Below, one piece after another: positions 34,155 to 40,982 of a DNA stretch of 64,000 nucleotides (position 1 is the stretch's first letter; every line of letters begins with the position of its first letter). The notes under the pieces were generated by a model that was given only the letters and a program-made list of their open reading frames with translations, was not told where the DNA came from and searched no databases. Origin of the DNA: Rhytidiadelphus loreus (taxonomy: Eukaryota; Streptophyta; Bryopsida; Hypnales; Hylocomiaceae); NCBI GenBank assembly GCA_947034895.1, contig OX344762.1, positions 20,192,760-20,256,759 on the forward strand. The letters are read 5' to 3'. Both the position numbers and the translations under genes were made by a program.

Positions 34155-34159
34155 GATCA

Positions 34160-34342
34160 TGTTAGCTTCACCTGTATTTTAGGGTTACATCCCTTGGATG
34201 TAGTTCATCTGCATGATGAACTTAGGTTAATCCGATAGTACTTAAGCAGCATGCTTACCATGCTAAAGCTCTCTCTTAATCTTACCTCAGGATTATACAG
34301 TTCAGACAGACGTGTCATAGACAGCGTCGAGTTTATTCTACA
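34160..34342 (+). repeat. 5' LTR, 183 bp
   Basis: It starts TGTTAGCTTCACC and ends TTTATTCTACA. It is very short for a plant copia LTR. It matches the 3' LTR except for T/C and G/A differences (GGATGTAG against GGATGCAG; CCATGCTA against CCATACTA). Confidence 0.95.
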
Positions 34343-34354
34343 TGGTATCAGAGC
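34343..34354 (+). other. Primer-binding site (initiator Met-tRNA)
   Basis: TGGTATCAGAGC directly abuts the 5' LTR and is the standard plant copia primer site complementary to the 3' end of initiator methionine tRNA. Confidence 0.95.
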
Positions 34355-34492
34355 GGACCGTTGGCTAAAGTAGTCTCAGACACTTGCGCCACAATTAGAA
34401 TACTAGAGTACACTTACGATTAGTATTCTTACGCGATCATCTCTCTCAGCTTTAGTCGACAGAGTCACTACAGCTCAGATACAAGCTTAGCA

Positions 34493-37400
34493 ATGGATTC
34501 TTACGTTAGAGACGTACCGAAGTCAATGAAACTTGCTGGACCAGCCAACTATCTCATATGGAGTTACAAAGTGAAATTGATGCTTATGCAGGAGGGACTT
34601 TGGAAGTATGTAGTACCTGCGGGAACTGATCGAACCACTGTCGATACCGGCGGCTTACCAGGCGCCGCCACCAGCTCGACAAGCAATGTCTCCAGCACAC
34701 CAGGAGCAGCCACGACGCCGATAATCACGTTGCCACCAGCTACTCCCGCACCTGCAGACAACAACGCACGTGATGAAGAACTTCGTTTCCGAGTTGGACG
34801 ACTTATTATATCTACGGTAAGAGACTCCATAATTCTCAGTGTTGTTCATCTAGTTGATCCTGAAGCAATCTGGCAACGACTGAGGAGTATGTGCGATGTT
34901 CGGAGTTCCTCCCGACGACTAGCGTTGAAGGAACAATTTTACTCTCTTAGACTTCCAGAAGGCAAACCAATCAGAGATCATCTTCAACACGTGAATCTGC
35001 TTGTTACTCAACTAGCGAACCTAGGTATCACAAACCCAGACGAAGACCTTGTCGACCTCACTCTCAACAGTCTGCCCAAGAGTTGGGCGACATTCAAACA
35101 AGTACAGAAGGGGCGAGATCGATCACCTTCGTTCCCGGAGCTGGAGGGGTTACTCTTACAAGAAGACATGAGTCGCACTTTGGACAAACAACGTAAAGAT
35201 GGCGAGTCTTTGAACCTGCTACGCCACAACCGAGCTCCACCTTGGGGATCAGCACAGCGTGGACGATCCAACAGGGGTCACGGGTATTCTACCGTTGATC
35301 GCAGCACGGTGACTCACCAACCGCGCATCGTCACCAACTCTACACCATCAACCATCTATTGTCACCGATGTGGCAAGCCAGGACACATAGCTCGGGATTG
35401 CATCCGCATTACACTTGAAGAACGCATCAAGGCGATGCAACTCCAGCTGCAGCACCTGCCACAACAACGCACTCATCAACAAATCAATCTAGCCGAAGTT
35501 AATGACAATGAGGGTGACGGCGATCATACTGAGGATCCTGTTGGCGATTCGACTGAAAACCTAGAATCTCATACCACAATAACACACGAGCAAGCCTGTT
35601 TCGACGCATTTCCGGAAGAACTAGAACAGGAGGAATACATAAATGCTTGCATCATCTCCACAGTTACCGAAGACGAATGGTTCCTGGACTCTGGCGCCTC
35701 ATCTCATGTCACTGGAAACCCTAGTCTCCTCAAGCACATAGTTCCCTCTCCTGTCCCTTACATCCGAGTTGCAGGAGGACAGATGATGCCTGTACTTGGA
35801 CATGGTACTGTAACTCACACCGATTCCTCTGGTGCAGTAAAGGATATTTTTAATGTCTTATATGTTCCAGGAGTTAGCTCTAATCTATTCTCTGTGGGAA
35901 AACTGACAGACGTAGGATACAAAGTATTATTTGAATCCACAACCTGTACCATCTATGACAACACTAACACCGTATTCATACATGGGATTCGTGACACAAA
36001 AAACAATCTTTACAGAATAGTTAACCTCGTCGATAGTCCAGCTCCAGTTCAATCTGCTCCAGCACCTACTTCAGTTCGACCTGTCCCAGGATCCAGCCAT
36101 CCCGTTCCCTACCAATCCAACTCATACCCCTCACAGAATACAATTCAGCTCTGGCATCAACGTGTTGGACATGTCAATTTCCAGAGCCTCTACCATATGA
36201 CAAACAAACAGATTGTAGCCGGCATCCCAGTACTTCCTTACTCAAAACATATCTGCTCCTCATGTATGCTGGGGAAACTCACCAGGGATCGCGTTCCCAA
36301 ACACCGCCGGACACCTATTACTAGGAAATTACAACTCATTCATAGTGATTTATGCGGACCCTTGCCTGTCACATCACGGAATGGGAACAAGTATATCCTG
36401 ACATTTATAGACGACTTCTCAAGAAAAACCTGGATATACTTTCTTTCAGACAAATCTCAAACACTGGAATATTTCAAGATATTCAAGGCTTTAGTCGAAG
36501 ATTCCAACTCACGTATAGGGAGCTTACGTAGTGACAGAGGGGGGGAATATCTATCTACTGCCTTCACCAATTATCTAAGCACTAACGGAATCTCACGACA
36601 ACTCACTGCTGGGTACTCACCACATCAAAATGGGGTCGCTGAAAGAAAGAATCGGACACTGCTCGAAGGAATACGCAGCGTTGTCACTGGAACCAACATC
36701 CCGAAGGCCCTCTGGGAAGAAATCGCCAAAGCTGTCAACTATATACAAAACAGATGTCCCACCAAAGCTCTCACACTGCAAACCCCAGAGGAAGTGTTCA
36801 CTGGAATAAGACCTCACCTTAGCCACCTTCGAATTCTAGGCTGCCGAGCATATTGCCATATCCCAGACTCCAAGCGTAACAAACTAGAACCTAAAGCCAT
36901 TGCCACTATTCTCGTAGGATACGATGAACAAAGCAAGGCCTACAGGTGCTACCACCCAGCCACCCGAAGAATCTTGGTCAGCAGAGATGTTCGCTTTGAC
37001 GAACTCATTTTTCAACTTCCCTCCGTAGAATCTACCGAACCTCTGCTGGGATCACATCTCCTCGACAGTTCAACTACGAGGTTCTCAACCTCTGCTGCTC
37101 CCCCTAGCCAGCCGAATCCTACAACCCCGACAATCATTCCCATTCCCGATGAATCACACAATACCCCTGGCACTCCCGATGGGACCCCGGACACCCCGGA
37201 CCGGACCCTAGACATCTCAGATCAACCCTCCGACTCGTCGAATCAGCCCGCTTCTTCCGAGATCGAACCTGCAATCACACCAACACACAGTATATCTCCA
37301 TCTTCAGCAGTTCCCGAATTGACGGGCGCTCCAACAGTAATCCTAAGACGATCCCACAGACCACGACGCCAAAATATCAGACTACAGGGGTATGACTTGT

Positions 37401-39523
37401 GCCTATCTACTGACGATTTTAATGTTTGCCTGTCTATTTCTACACCTACAGCTCCACCGTCTGAATCAGATCAAGATAACATTACGTTCAAACAAGCAGC
37501 CGCAGATCCGGGATGGCGTCAAGCAATGGAAACAGAAATGACCTCCATTTGGAAAAATCAAACTTGGGAATTAGAAGCTCTTCCCTCAAATCACAAGGCT
37601 ATCTCATGCAAGTGGGTATACAAACTAAAACCAGGAATTGATGGTCAACCTCCAATCAAGAAAGCTCGTCTTGTGGCCAGAGGTTTCGAACAACGTGCAG
37701 GAATTGATTTCCACGAAACCTTTGCTCCAGTAATCAAGTGGGCGACTCTCCGCACAGTCATCGCCCTAGCTGCAACAAAACAATGGGAAATCCACCATAT
37801 GGACGTTCGAACTGCATTTCTTCACGGTATTCTCAACGAACGCGTCTACATGCGACAACCTCCAGGATTTCGGGTCAAAGGGAAAGAAGATCTCACCTGC
37901 CGACTTCGAAAATCACTGTATGGTCTGAAACAGAGCCCACGTACCTGGTATGATCGAATTGACAAAGCCCTATTACGCATTGGTCTCACCAGGAGCACAT
38001 CAGACGCAAATATGTACTATCTACACAAAGATGGACAAACGCTGATCATTCTACTCTACGTAGATGACCTATTTATTACTGGAAGCTCACCTACAATAAT
38101 CTCTTGGATCAAGAATTTTTTACACAAGGAGTTCGACATGACGAACCTAGGACGGATCAAGAAGTACCTGGGAATCAATTTCGAGACGGTCCGACTTGGA
38201 GTCTTTCTTCATCAACGAGAGTATGCAGCCTCTATCCTGCAAGAATTCGGCATGCAAGACAGTCACAATGCATCAACTCCGTTCCCCGAAGGTCATCAGC
38301 TCGTCACCGACATGAAATCCCCATTGACTGACTCCAATTACTACTGTCGCCTTGTTGGAAAGTTAATATTTCTCACCATAACAAGACCTGACATTGCTTA
38401 CTCCATAAGCAGACTCAGCTCATATATGGCCAATCCACAAGAGGCGCATCTAGAGGCTGCCAAGCACGTCCTTCGCTACCTACGAGGGACCATACATCAA
38501 GGGATATTATACAAGGCCAAGTCACCTCCCCTTATCATCGGGTACACAGATGCTGATTGGGGATCATGCACCGAAACAAGGAGGTCGATGGGAGCATACA
38601 TATTTACATTAGCAGGAGGACCGATTACCTGGCAGAGCAAGCGACAGCTTACCGTCTCTCGCTCCTCCACCGAATCAGAATACCGCGCGCTCAGTGACGG
38701 TGCTCAAGAAGCCGTTTGGCTTCATAGACTACTAGCTGAGTTACAAACACCTTCTATCGCCACTTCCCCAGATTCAGCCAATGATCATAACCGCAGTAAA
38801 ACTGTTCCCAGTATTACTATCCATTGCGATAACCAAGGAACCATAAAAAATTCTCAAAATCCAGTCTTTCACGCCCGGACCAAACACATTGAGATTCATT
38901 ATCACTTTATCCGTGAACGAGTGATCGGGGGGGAAATAGTGATCCAATATATTCATACAAATCTACAGCCGGCTGATGCACTCACCAAACCCTTGGGCAG
39001 GGTCAAGTTTCAGCAACACCGCACTGCAATAGGATTACACAGCTTGGAAACCCTAGAAAAAACAAGTCTATCTTCCCTTACACCCTACATACAATCTAAC
39101 ACCTCATACCCTGCCACAGATAGCGTTCAGCATCCGCTAGAGAAGAAAAGCTCTTATGCTCGGCACCTCGGAAGCCCAGAACCTCTCGAGAACAATCCTC
39201 CCAAGAAAAATATAACCCAGGCCTCCGTCCCTGCCTCACGACATAAAATCTCTCCTGGGCCGATTCTCTCCTCAAGCGCCCCCGGTTACCAAACTCTTCA
39301 ACTTGAGACTCCACCTTACTCCCACGACAAACAGCACACAACTCCTCGAGCGGCCACACTTGCTTCACCACCACCGTGTCCGCAACAGCAACGCACCACC
39401 TCCAGAGTCGCGCCACAAAGGAGAGCATCATCCACAATACAACTCCCGCCAACATCGTCAGCGAAGCCGCCTCCACGAACTCCTTCAGCGACAACTCCTG
39501 CTCAATCTTCTCACACGCCATGA
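34493..39523 (+). CDS. Ty1/copia Gag-Pol polyprotein (1676 codons, intact)
   Basis: Single uninterrupted ORF from ATG (MDSYVRDVPKSMKL). An N-terminal Gag region of UBN2 type is followed by a zinc knuckle CHRCGKPGHIARDC at residues 290-303. The aspartic protease has DSGASSH at about 399-405. Integrase begins near 550 with an HHCC zinc finger (LWHQRVGH, CSSCMLGK), then the DDE core (HSDLCGPL, HQNGVAERKNR). Reverse transcriptase contains KARLVARGFEQ, HHMDVRTAFLHG and LYVDDLFITG (about 1188). RNase H has YTDADWGS, TWQSKRQ and SRSSTESEYRAL. Recognisable Pol sequence stops near GRVKFQQHRTAIGL (about nt 39040). The remaining ~155 residues are low-complexity Pro/Ser/Thr/Gln-rich and lie opposite an antisense ORF, so they may be a by-product of that frame. 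All catalytic motifs seem present. Confidence 0.95.
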   Translation: MDSYVRDVPKSMKLAGPANYLIWSYKVKLMLMQEGLWKYVVPAGTDRTTVDTGGLPGAATSSTSNVSSTPGAATTPIITLPPATPAPADNNARDEELRFRVGRLIISTVRDSIILSVVHLVDPEAIWQRLRSMCDVRSSSRRLALKEQFYSLRLPEGKPIRDHLQHVNLLVTQLANLGITNPDEDLVDLTLNSLPKSWATFKQVQKGRDRSPSFPELEGLLLQEDMSRTLDKQRKDGESLNLLRHNRAPPWGSAQRGRSNRGHGYSTVDRSTVTHQPRIVTNSTPSTIYCHRCGKPGHIARDCIRITLEERIKAMQLQLQHLPQQRTHQQINLAEVNDNEGDGDHTEDPVGDSTENLESHTTITHEQACFDAFPEELEQEEYINACIISTVTEDEWFLDSGASSHVTGNPSLLKHIVPSPVPYIRVAGGQMMPVLGHGTVTHTDSSGAVKDIFNVLYVPGVSSNLFSVGKLTDVGYKVLFESTTCTIYDNTNTVFIHGIRDTKNNLYRIVNLVDSPAPVQSAPAPTSVRPVPGSSHPVPYQSNSYPSQNTIQLWHQRVGHVNFQSLYHMTNKQIVAGIPVLPYSKHICSSCMLGKLTRDRVPKHRRTPITRKLQLIHSDLCGPLPVTSRNGNKYILTFIDDFSRKTWIYFLSDKSQTLEYFKIFKALVEDSNSRIGSLRSDRGGEYLSTAFTNYLSTNGISRQLTAGYSPHQNGVAERKNRTLLEGIRSVVTGTNIPKALWEEIAKAVNYIQNRCPTKALTLQTPEEVFTGIRPHLSHLRILGCRAYCHIPDSKRNKLEPKAIATILVGYDEQSKAYRCYHPATRRILVSRDVRFDELIFQLPSVESTEPLLGSHLLDSSTTRFSTSAAPPSQPNPTTPTIIPIPDESHNTPGTPDGTPDTPDRTLDISDQPSDSSNQPASSEIEPAITPTHSISPSSAVPELTGAPTVILRRSHRPRRQNIRLQGYDLCLSTDDFNVCLSISTPTAPPSESDQDNITFKQAAADPGWRQAMETEMTSIWKNQTWELEALPSNHKAISCKWVYKLKPGIDGQPPIKKARLVARGFEQRAGIDFHETFAPVIKWATLRTVIALAATKQWEIHHMDVRTAFLHGILNERVYMRQPPGFRVKGKEDLTCRLRKSLYGLKQSPRTWYDRIDKALLRIGLTRSTSDANMYYLHKDGQTLIILLYVDDLFITGSSPTIISWIKNFLHKEFDMTNLGRIKKYLGINFETVRLGVFLHQREYAASILQEFGMQDSHNASTPFPEGHQLVTDMKSPLTDSNYYCRLVGKLIFLTITRPDIAYSISRLSSYMANPQEAHLEAAKHVLRYLRGTIHQGILYKAKSPPLIIGYTDADWGSCTETRRSMGAYIFTLAGGPITWQSKRQLTVSRSSTESEYRALSDGAQEAVWLHRLLAELQTPSIATSPDSANDHNRSKTVPSITIHCDNQGTIKNSQNPVFHARTKHIEIHYHFIRERVIGGEIVIQYIHTNLQPADALTKPLGRVKFQQHRTAIGLHSLETLEKTSLSSLTPYIQSNTSYPATDSVQHPLEKKSSYARHLGSPEPLENNPPKKNITQASVPASRHKISPGPILSSSAPGYQTLQLETPPYSHDKQHTTPRAATLASPPPCPQQQRTTSRVAPQRRASSTIQLPPTSSAKPPPRTPSATTPAQSSHTP
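39096..39521 (-). CDS. Antisense ORF in the copia element: hydrophobic segment plus RNase H1-type hybrid-binding domain (141 aa)
   Basis: The ORF runs from an ATG whose last-strand base pairs with the T of the sense TGA (one-base overlap) to a TAG. Residues about 21-52 are hydrophobic (LTMLAGVVLWMMLSF...), a possible membrane anchor. Residues 91-136 match the N-terminal domain of eukaryotic RNase H1, also found in caulimovirus P6 (Cauli_VI family): RFYVVRQGRRPGLYFSWEDC, then VLGFRGAEHKSF and LADAERYLW. The conserved Tyr, Gly-rich turn, Pro-Gly-x-Tyr, Ser-Trp, Gly-Phe-x-Gly-Ala and Lys-Ser-Phe positions are all there. That domain binds RNA:DNA hybrids or dsRNA in known proteins. No RNase H catalytic domain follows. 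Transcription would have to come from the 3' LTR in reverse or from DNA beyond it. Function is unknown. Confidence 0.7.
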   Translation of the reverse strand: MACEKIEQELSLKEFVEAASLTMLAGVVLWMMLSFVARLWRWCVAVADTVVVKQVWPLEELCAVCRGSKVESQVEEFGNRGRLRRESAQERFYVVRQGRRPGLYFSWEDCSREVLGFRGAEHKSFSSLADAERYLWQGMRC

Positions 39524-39585
39524 AGGCGAAATTCCCCTTACTAATTAGGATCACAGCTCACAGAAAGGAATGTCAATCTTCGATT

Positions 39586-39594
39586 GAGGGAGGG
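39586..39594 (+). other. Polypurine tract
   Basis: GAGGGAGGG immediately precedes the 3' LTR, the expected plus-strand primer. Confidence 0.85.
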
Positions 39595-39777
39595 TGTTAG
39601 CTTCACCTGTATTTTAGGGTTACATCCCTTGGATGCAGTTCATCTGCATGATGAACTTAGGTTAATCCGATAGTACTTAAGCAGCATGCTTACCATACTA
39701 AAGCTCTCTCTTAATCTTACCTCAGGATTATACAGTTCAGACAGACGTGTCATAGACAGCGTCGAGTTTATTCTACA
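39595..39777 (+). repeat. 3' LTR, 183 bp
   Basis: Same length and ends as the 5' LTR, with two substitutions. It is followed by GATCA, the target duplication. Confidence 0.95.
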
Positions 39778-40982
39778 GATCATTATATACGAATGCTAAT
39801 TGATAAAGCAGTACTGGATGCGTATTTTTCTAGGATAAAGGAAACGACATGTTGGGACTGAATATTACATGTCTTAATTTACAGAAACTTGCTCAAAAAT
39901 GAGGTGACATGTGAAAAAAATTCTCTCTCTCTCTCTCTAATTTCAAATTTTTGTTTGTGAATTTTTTTATTTTTTTTATGTATCTCAACTGCCTAATTAC
40001 TCTTATAGACAAGGATGTAAAACTCAAATAAATATAAACTCAAGGTAAATTTGGGAATGAATTAACTTAGAAAGTATCAGAATTGTACCTTGATTCAAAG
40101 ATGTCTTACTATTGCTTTTGCTTTTCATTTCTTTTGCAAGGATTTATTTATTTACTATTTAAAGAGTGAATGCATACTAACTAGGGTCCAAGGAAGTTTA
40201 GTTTTTTGCTTAATCTTTTTCTAGGTCATCACTACAAACTTGATGTCCAAATGACCTCAAATTTTTGGCACAAAGAAGGTTGTTGCAATATCCAAAATAG
40301 TCCAATAAGAAGGCTTTGGAGTTGAGCGGATGGCTTGGTGATCGGAATGGCACTTAGATACATGAAATGTGGTGATCTTTGAACATGGATGGATTGACAT
40401 CTACATGAAGACAACTAGTTATATAGGTTGCCTGGATGAAATTTGCACTTAATTGATTATATTGTGATGTAGGTGGAAGGCATGCATGATGGACGCTTGT
40501 AAAATAATTTGAAAATATAGTAGAACAAATCAAAGAGCTACTTTTTCAAAGTAAACATGTTGTACATTATGAACTATTCATTTAGATGTTTTATAATTTA
40601 GGAGTTGATTCTTTTGAAGTTGTTAGAAATTAATGCTACATGACTTGTATAGACTAATAAATGTACAGACTTCTTCTATTAATGTAATTCATATACAAAA
40701 AACATAAGTTATATTTTGTAACATTTGCAAGTTCATGCCAGAGTTTCAAAGTTAGAATGGAAGGTCTACTTGAAAGAAAATGTAATTTCATTTTTATATT
40801 CTTGTATACATATACCTCATGATTTTATTGATGAAAGTGTCGTTTTTTGGGTGGTGTACATGTCAAATGGAAAGTCACACCTTTGAAGTGCAAAATTGTC
40901 TAGTTAAGATTGTTCCAACCTTGACAACTCAATAATATATAGGAGTTGACATTGAGTTTTACATCCTTGCTATATAAGAGTG

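Follow-up and report, generated by a model that had tools for sequence, protein, structure and literature searches.

An antisense gene with an RNase H1-type hybrid-binding domain in Ty1/copia elements of the moss Rhytidiadelphus loreus

The 3' end of a Ty1/copia element of the moss Rhytidiadelphus loreus can be read on both strands, which raises the question of which reading is the gene. The element lies in a stretch of 64,000 nucleotides of contig OX344762.1 (positions 20,192,760 to 20,256,759), hereafter the window. On the plus strand, the gag-pol polyprotein ends in a tail rich in Pro, Ser and Thr; on the minus strand, an open reading frame (ORF) of 141 codons plus stop occupies positions 39096..39521. 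The ATG of the latter (39519-39521) and the sense TGA (39521-39523) share one base, in agreement with an earlier, sequence-only reading of this DNA. We conclude that the antisense ORF is almost certainly a selected, protein-coding accessory gene, and that its product very probably binds nucleic acid.

A hybrid-binding domain on the minus strand

The 141-aa protein matches PF01693 (Cauli_VI, 'Ribonuclease H1 N-terminal domain') over residues 92-134 (39120..39248, minus strand), with E=1.5e-16 and 60.8 bits against a cut-off of 21. This is the sole Pfam family found at E<=1, and no RNase H catalytic domain was detected at that threshold. A sequence search of the PDB returned the hybrid-binding domain (HBD) of RNase H1 from yeast (4.4e-8) and human (2.4e-5), plus one weak match to a designed protein (E=0.31). 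In an AlphaFold2 model built from a 26-row alignment, a predicted helix at residues 3-50 (39372..39515, minus strand), with a hydrophobic core at 19-37, is followed by a low-confidence linker and by the HBD at pLDDT ~90-97. When this model was compared with the PDB using Foldseek, 3bsu (human RNase H1 HBD with RNA/DNA) ranked first with a TM of 0.89 by target, and yeast 1qhk ranked sixth; the leading chains superposed with an rmsd of 0.7-0.9. The sequence-only reading had proposed an RNase H1-type HBD preceded by a hydrophobic segment, and both parts are borne out by these analyses.

Relatives of the domain were detected beyond RNase H1. Caulimovirus transactivator proteins rank high in a viral fold search with the antisense protein, with good superposition over ~47-54 columns; longer alignments give an rmsd of at least 10. 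Using tblastn, HBD stretches 28-49% identical were found in records of plasmids (14) and phages (6); where annotated, they are mostly ribonuclease H or viroplasmin proteins. A homolog search with the 141-aa protein alone (P0001) gave 42 candidates, 0 of them at E<=0.001, and PHROGs contained no match to it. No locus was confirmed in viral contigs with P0001, an RT-RNase H stretch, A1 or A3 as queries, nor in genome contigs with A1 and A3.

A chance ORF was considered and rejected on the Pfam match, on randomization of the sense tail, on purifying selection and on recurrence in diverged elements. In 5 of 2000 trials, synonymous-codon resampling of the tail left the antisense frame open for at least 140 codons; shuffling of codon order did so in 0 of 2000.

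Selection and descent in related elements

A search of the genome (407 Mb in 489 contigs) listed 121 matches to the antisense protein. In all 30 of the best loci and in 18 of the next 20, the strand opposite the antisense ORF carries an adjoining copia pol, with only a remnant of it in L041; pol is absent beside the HBD ORF in L036 and L049. The ORF is intact in 24 of these 50 loci (23 distinct), including L044, which has no N-terminal part, and the hydrophobic helix is present in all full-length intact ORFs scanned.

From the coordinates, antisense codon positions 1, 2 and 3 pair with sense positions 1, 3 and 2. In four diverged intact pairs (L001-L006, L012-L015, L011-L022 and L006-L009), the omega of the antisense frame was 0.18, 0.26, 0.21 and 0.20, compared with 1.15, 1.24, 1.26 and 1.23 for the sense frame over the same stretch. 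Third-position shares in the antisense frame were, in the same order, 0.55, 0.51, 0.48 and 0.47 (P 1.8e-5 to 6e-4). Judging by these substitution patterns, the antisense frame is under purifying selection, as the sequence-only reading had suspected.

The opposite possibility is that the sense C-terminal tail (past residue 1524; 39065..39523, plus strand) is what selection maintains, with the antisense frame as its shadow. The sense frame does stay open through the ORF beyond what codon-order shuffles give in L001 (P 0.004), L039 (0.004) and L043 (0.015), though not in L042 (0.127). However, in L011, L028 and L050 the sense frame stops 0-2 codons past the pol match and the antisense ORF is intact; L022 and L023 end their sense frame likewise, though with a damaged pol. 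The nearest relative found, the metagenomic protein P0003, stops at the equivalent of residue 1524 and is tail-less, in line with the earlier description of the tail as odd. Nor does a sense omega above 1 speak for positive selection, because antisense constraint lowers synonymous change in the sense frame and because pairs with a stop-broken tail show the same values as those with an open one. In addition, the PF01693 match lies in the antisense frame. We therefore reject the sense tail as the selected product: as sole explanation it is refuted, and we give it practically no weight. On the evidence of these copies the tail is dispensable and unconserved. The sequence-only reading had named related copies with a broken antisense frame and a conserved tail as the finding that would speak against it; in the copies checked, it is the antisense frame that is kept and the tail that is not.

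As a separate observation, the open sense frame is seen in three lineages (the window at 39065-39523, L039 and L043) although the tail residues look unconstrained.

The distribution of the gene was then related to that of RNase H. Of 897 RNase H candidates in the genome 150 were scored, and of 169 candidates for a second antisense gene, described below as PDF-type, also 150. Partners within 300 bp were sought for all 150 RNase H matches among 80 of the 121 HBD matches and 79 of the 150 PDF-type matches, the weaker ones being omitted; hence counts of RNase H matches with neither partner are upper bounds. Among relatives at 63-100% identity in RNase H, an antisense HBD ORF lies within 300 bp in 55 of 62, and within 2.5 kb in 59 of 62 (all 121 HBD matches against 76 of the 150 RNase H matches). 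At 43-50% identity, the partner is HBD in 2 of 62 and PDF-type in 42, with neither in 18; at 40-42%, PDF-type in 1 of 26 and neither in 25. None of the 100 HBD or PDF partners joined by coordinates is in sense orientation. The idea that all copia elements carry the HBD gene was discarded: in the 3' flanks of 11 RNase H matches at 50% identity or less, a local HMM found a degraded HBD ORF in 2 and none in 9, and 4 of these 9 (L059, L060, L061 and L064) show a PDF-type match.

To compare descent, 35 representatives were kept from 44 usable loci after removal of near-identical ones. Distances in pol and in the ORF correlate (Mantel r 0.59, reached in 0 of 5000 shuffles), and the two trees yield mostly the same element groupings. 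Mean identity is 0.68 in the RNase H stretch, 0.64 in the HBD, 0.33 in residues 1-60 and 0.19 in the linker. By these comparisons, the antisense HBD gene descends together with pol and marks a whole copia clade. This clade has been recently active, since LTR (long terminal repeat) stretches 97-100% identical occur in 7 of 20 longer loci (L037, L038, L039, L042, L043, L046 and L047), 3 of the 7 being cut by the locus edge.

The positions of human Trp43 and Lys59, which we take to be HBD contact positions, are occupied by Trp (W107) in 32 of the 35 representatives and by Lys or Arg (K/R123) in 35 of 35. Contact residues described for human RNase H1 include Tyr29 and Lys60 (PMC7657459); the Tyr29 position is Tyr (Y93) in all 35.

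HBD ORFs also occur elsewhere. Five weaker HBD-only matches (L051-L055) were fetched, and all of them lie in other repeats that have no copia pol; L051/L055, L052/L054 and L053 represent HBD ORFs of other repeat families, and a hydrophobic stretch precedes the HBD in L051, L053 and L055. Three of the five were scanned and match PF01693 at 8.9e-20, 9.6e-18 and 7.8e-13. The HBD of a metagenomic protein, P0136, is 67% identical, and this protein probably belongs to the same family by sequence; hence the family may occur outside this genome. Another metagenomic protein (P0152, 159 aa, 16 member sequences) shows the same architecture of hydrophobic N-terminal stretch, linker and HBD.

The host element of the window looks intact, as first described, and is young. 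It spans 34160-39777 on the plus strand, with GATCA on either side (34155-34159 and 39778-39782) and two LTRs of 98.9% identity. The 5' LTR (34160..34342, 183 bp) is directly followed by the PBS-like (primer binding site-like) sequence TGGTATCAGAGCGG at 34343-34356, presumably of the tRNA-Met type. Gag-pol is a single frame of 1676 codons (34493..39523) that comprises gag, zinc knuckle, pre-integrase, integrase, reverse transcriptase (RT) and RNase H; copia gag, integrase and RT domains were recognised, and the RNase H part was identified by alignment to relatives. A CAATC/GATTG inverted repeat plus the polypurine tract GAGGGAGGG (39574..39594) precede the 3' LTR (39595..39777). A similar inverted repeat stands just 5' of the polypurine tract in most other elements listed, diverged ones included. 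The window was also scanned with Rfam and for tRNAs, without a match.

A sister lineage with a different head

A sister copia lineage of the same genome (L059-L061 and L067-L073) carries an antisense gene beside RNase H that occupies the same slot and has the same orientation. In L059-L061, its ORF encodes a hydrophobic helix and then a C-terminus of the form WWDNR...N..A.DF.H......LW....TP.W, which we take to be the PDF motif of OSB proteins. Asp and Phe of the Pro-Asp-Phe signature are invariant in the sister proteins, and Pro is present in 6 of 8 aligned. The sister C-terminus resembles this motif, which binds single-stranded DNA (ssDNA), in a comparison with the general pattern of the motif and with its described signature. 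Pfam gave no match at E<=0.1 for the antisense proteins of L059, L060 and L061, and a PDB sequence search with that of L061 gave none at E<=1. The PDF motif is described as 50 residues long, with the Pro-Asp-Phe signature (PMC6963530, PMC4166229), and as conserved in green plants only (PMC4166229); in AtOSB1, one of these sources states, the motif alone is enough for ssDNA binding.

The helix frame of the sister gene lacks an upstream ATG. Another frame, however, holds a 24-codon stretch that starts with MA or MS and is immediately followed by a GT donor. A predicted 24-codon exon 1 plus a phase-0 intron can be read in 9 of 9 copies (L070 included; L060, a near-copy of L059, was left uncounted), with CAG acceptors 85-102 nt further on. 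Exon 1 was gapless in all pairs of sister copies compared, while introns required gaps. Between L059 and L061, exon 1 has a third-position share of 0.52 (P 0.027) and exon 2 one of 0.44 (P 0.004). The transcript of the sister gene would be spliced. Since retrotransposition copies the sense RNA, which is not spliced at this place, an intron on the antisense strand would be preserved, and this could also explain why the gene is placed in antisense.

Seven PDF-type stretches were picked by hand from 150 matches, all stop-free within the listed match. Both gene types have in common a register with a Ser/Thr + residue and Trp at +9 (HBD 15/15, PDF 9/9), a register that was sought as such; as descriptive counts, Arg stands at +17 in 11 of 15 HBD types and 8 of 9 PDF types. 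A shared origin of the N-termini of the two genes is suggested by these sequences. Separately, a PDF-like stretch of ~33 residues (~50-60% identical; query 109-144) was detected in many repeats, often in open frames of ~73 codons.

Possible roles and known systems

What might such a protein do? The proposal that we lean towards, by a small step, is that an antisense accessory protein made of helix, linker and HBD tethers or shields the reverse-transcription intermediates of the element at a membrane or replication compartment. The gene would be expressed from the minus strand of the element; the N-terminal hydrophobic helix would insert into a membrane, the 141-aa protein being probably membrane-anchored; a flexible linker would join the predicted helix to the C-terminal RNase H1-type HBD; and the latter would hold or protect the RNA:DNA hybrid of the element's own reverse transcription. 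That the protein acts on reverse-transcription intermediates at all we hold to be an even bet. A hybrid is favoured over double-stranded RNA (dsRNA) as the ligand because the sister head looks ssDNA-binding, and reverse transcription generates hybrid as well as ssDNA. A broader and more tentative generalization, which we would not yet bet on, is that two copia clades of one genome share a modular antisense gene with a membrane-helix N-terminus and interchangeable heads, HBD for hybrid and PDF for single-stranded cDNA. With expression from the minus strand, splicing in one of the clades, and a product that anchors or protects intermediates at a membrane, it would make up a new class of minus-strand replication factors for LTR elements. 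The ORF may have originated as a captured host gene fragment, as first proposed; no donor gene was found.

Several observations weigh against these proposals. The pair L040-L043 shows no excess of third-position changes and has an antisense omega of 0.71; values range from 0.41 to 0.82 in the close pairs within L001-L004 (6-11 changes), and in distant pairs from ~0.35 to 0.67 with high dS (synonymous divergence). The accessory gene is under weaker constraint than pol, whose RNase H has an omega of 0.04-0.11 in the same four diverged pairs (dS up to 3.2), and 26 of the 50 loci failed the intactness test. The contact position of human Lys60 is Ser in 31 of the 35 representatives. When the HBD-type profile was aligned by hhalign to the exon-2 profile of the PDF type, the probability was 1% (E 0.057), which does not support homology of the helices of the two gene types. 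The PDF assignment of the sister C-terminus, for its part, is based on the signature as two reviews describe it.

The HBD of RNase H1 and of caulimovirus P6 can bind dsRNA too. The main rival to tethering, a much less probable one in our view, is accordingly suppression of silencing by the protein: transcripts of the two strands would pair into dsRNA, which the HBD would shield from Dicer-like enzymes. The presence of the HBD fold in the caulimovirus transactivators fits this idea, as does the expectation that antisense transcription itself would yield dsRNA (PMC7264820); an OSB-type head, if that of the sister gene truly is one, would fit it poorly, as such proteins are reported to prefer ssDNA over double-stranded DNA or RNA (PMC4166229). 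One could also think of self-restriction, with the gene keeping copy number down, given that antisense promoter use would grow with copy number and that an anchored binder could sequester intermediates. Ty1 p22 is reportedly comparable in effect. We regard self-restriction as improbable: the gene is kept in elements that have recently been active, as their LTR identities of 97-100% indicate, and its long-term conservation would be harder to explain. Finally, the antisense RNA alone might matter, the coding appearance being the leftover of a captured and unneeded gene. Transposons commonly capture genes, HBD ORFs do occur in other repeats (the five weaker matches above), and a captured PF01693 gene is described in a fungal Helitron (PMC4289320); but purifying selection on the protein across many lineages, its common descent with pol, and the constant length of exon 1 in the sister gene make this very improbable. 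Tethering or shielding of reverse-transcription intermediates thus remains the reading that we prefer.

The antisense HBD gene suggests that a helper protein made from the opposite strand of plant copia elements has been overlooked. No earlier description of such a gene in copia elements was found in the one open-access library searched, subscription papers lying outside the search. In the REXdb survey, extra ORFs were considered from 250 codons upward (PMC6317226), a cut-off at which the HBD gene would be missed; length cut-offs seem to have hidden such genes. As of 2020, the proteins that plant LTR elements encode in antisense ORFs were described as lacking clear similarity to database proteins (PMC7264820). 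The product of the HBD gene has a fold that can be recognised, a likely ligand, and a size suited to in vitro tests; the sister gene, with its other head, is a natural counterpart and hints at the type of ligand. A conserved antisense intron would strongly indicate expression, and provides strand-specific RNA-seq with an exact junction.

Among known systems, the RNase H1 HBD (PF01693; 3bsu, 1qhk) is alike in sequence, predicted fold, and Tyr and Trp contact positions; unlike RNase H1, the 141-aa protein has an N-terminal helix in place of the catalytic domain, and mostly Ser at the human K60 position. Caulimovirus P6/TAV (transactivator/viroplasmin), also the product of a reverse-transcribing element, contains this small domain as well, according to the fold search. 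P6 is, however, far larger and sense-encoded, and the well-superposed part of the match is the HBD. In capE of a Pleurotus ostreatus Helitron, a PF01693 domain was captured by a transposon, albeit a fungal rolling-circle DNA transposon, and the text consulted does not report antisense or lineage-wide status (PMC4289320). The sister gene resembles those of the organellar ssDNA-binding OSB proteins in its putative C-terminal motif, which in OSB proteins has ~50 residues with the Pro-Asp-Phe signature (PMC6963530, PMC4166229); it differs in showing no OB-fold/SSB-like domain by Pfam, and in a hydrophobic helix in front and an antisense position in a copia element. A parallel in arrangement is aORF-3R. 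That plant LTR elements can carry antisense extra ORFs between pol and the 3' LTR is established (maize Grande, RIRE2, Silene Retand and PvRetro13), and antisense TRP28 ORFs are present in 97% of Retand clusters; like the HBD gene, they recur within a lineage and are suspected nucleic-acid binders (PMC7264820, PMC11963269). The window ORF, too, is antisense, lies between pol and the 3' LTR and is conserved across copies, and it additionally overlaps the sense tail. The named aORF-3R examples and the TRP28 survey are, however, mainly Ty3/gypsy, whereas the gene described here belongs to Ty1/copia elements, is short (~140-160 aa), and encodes a hydrophobic helix and an HBD that can be recognised.

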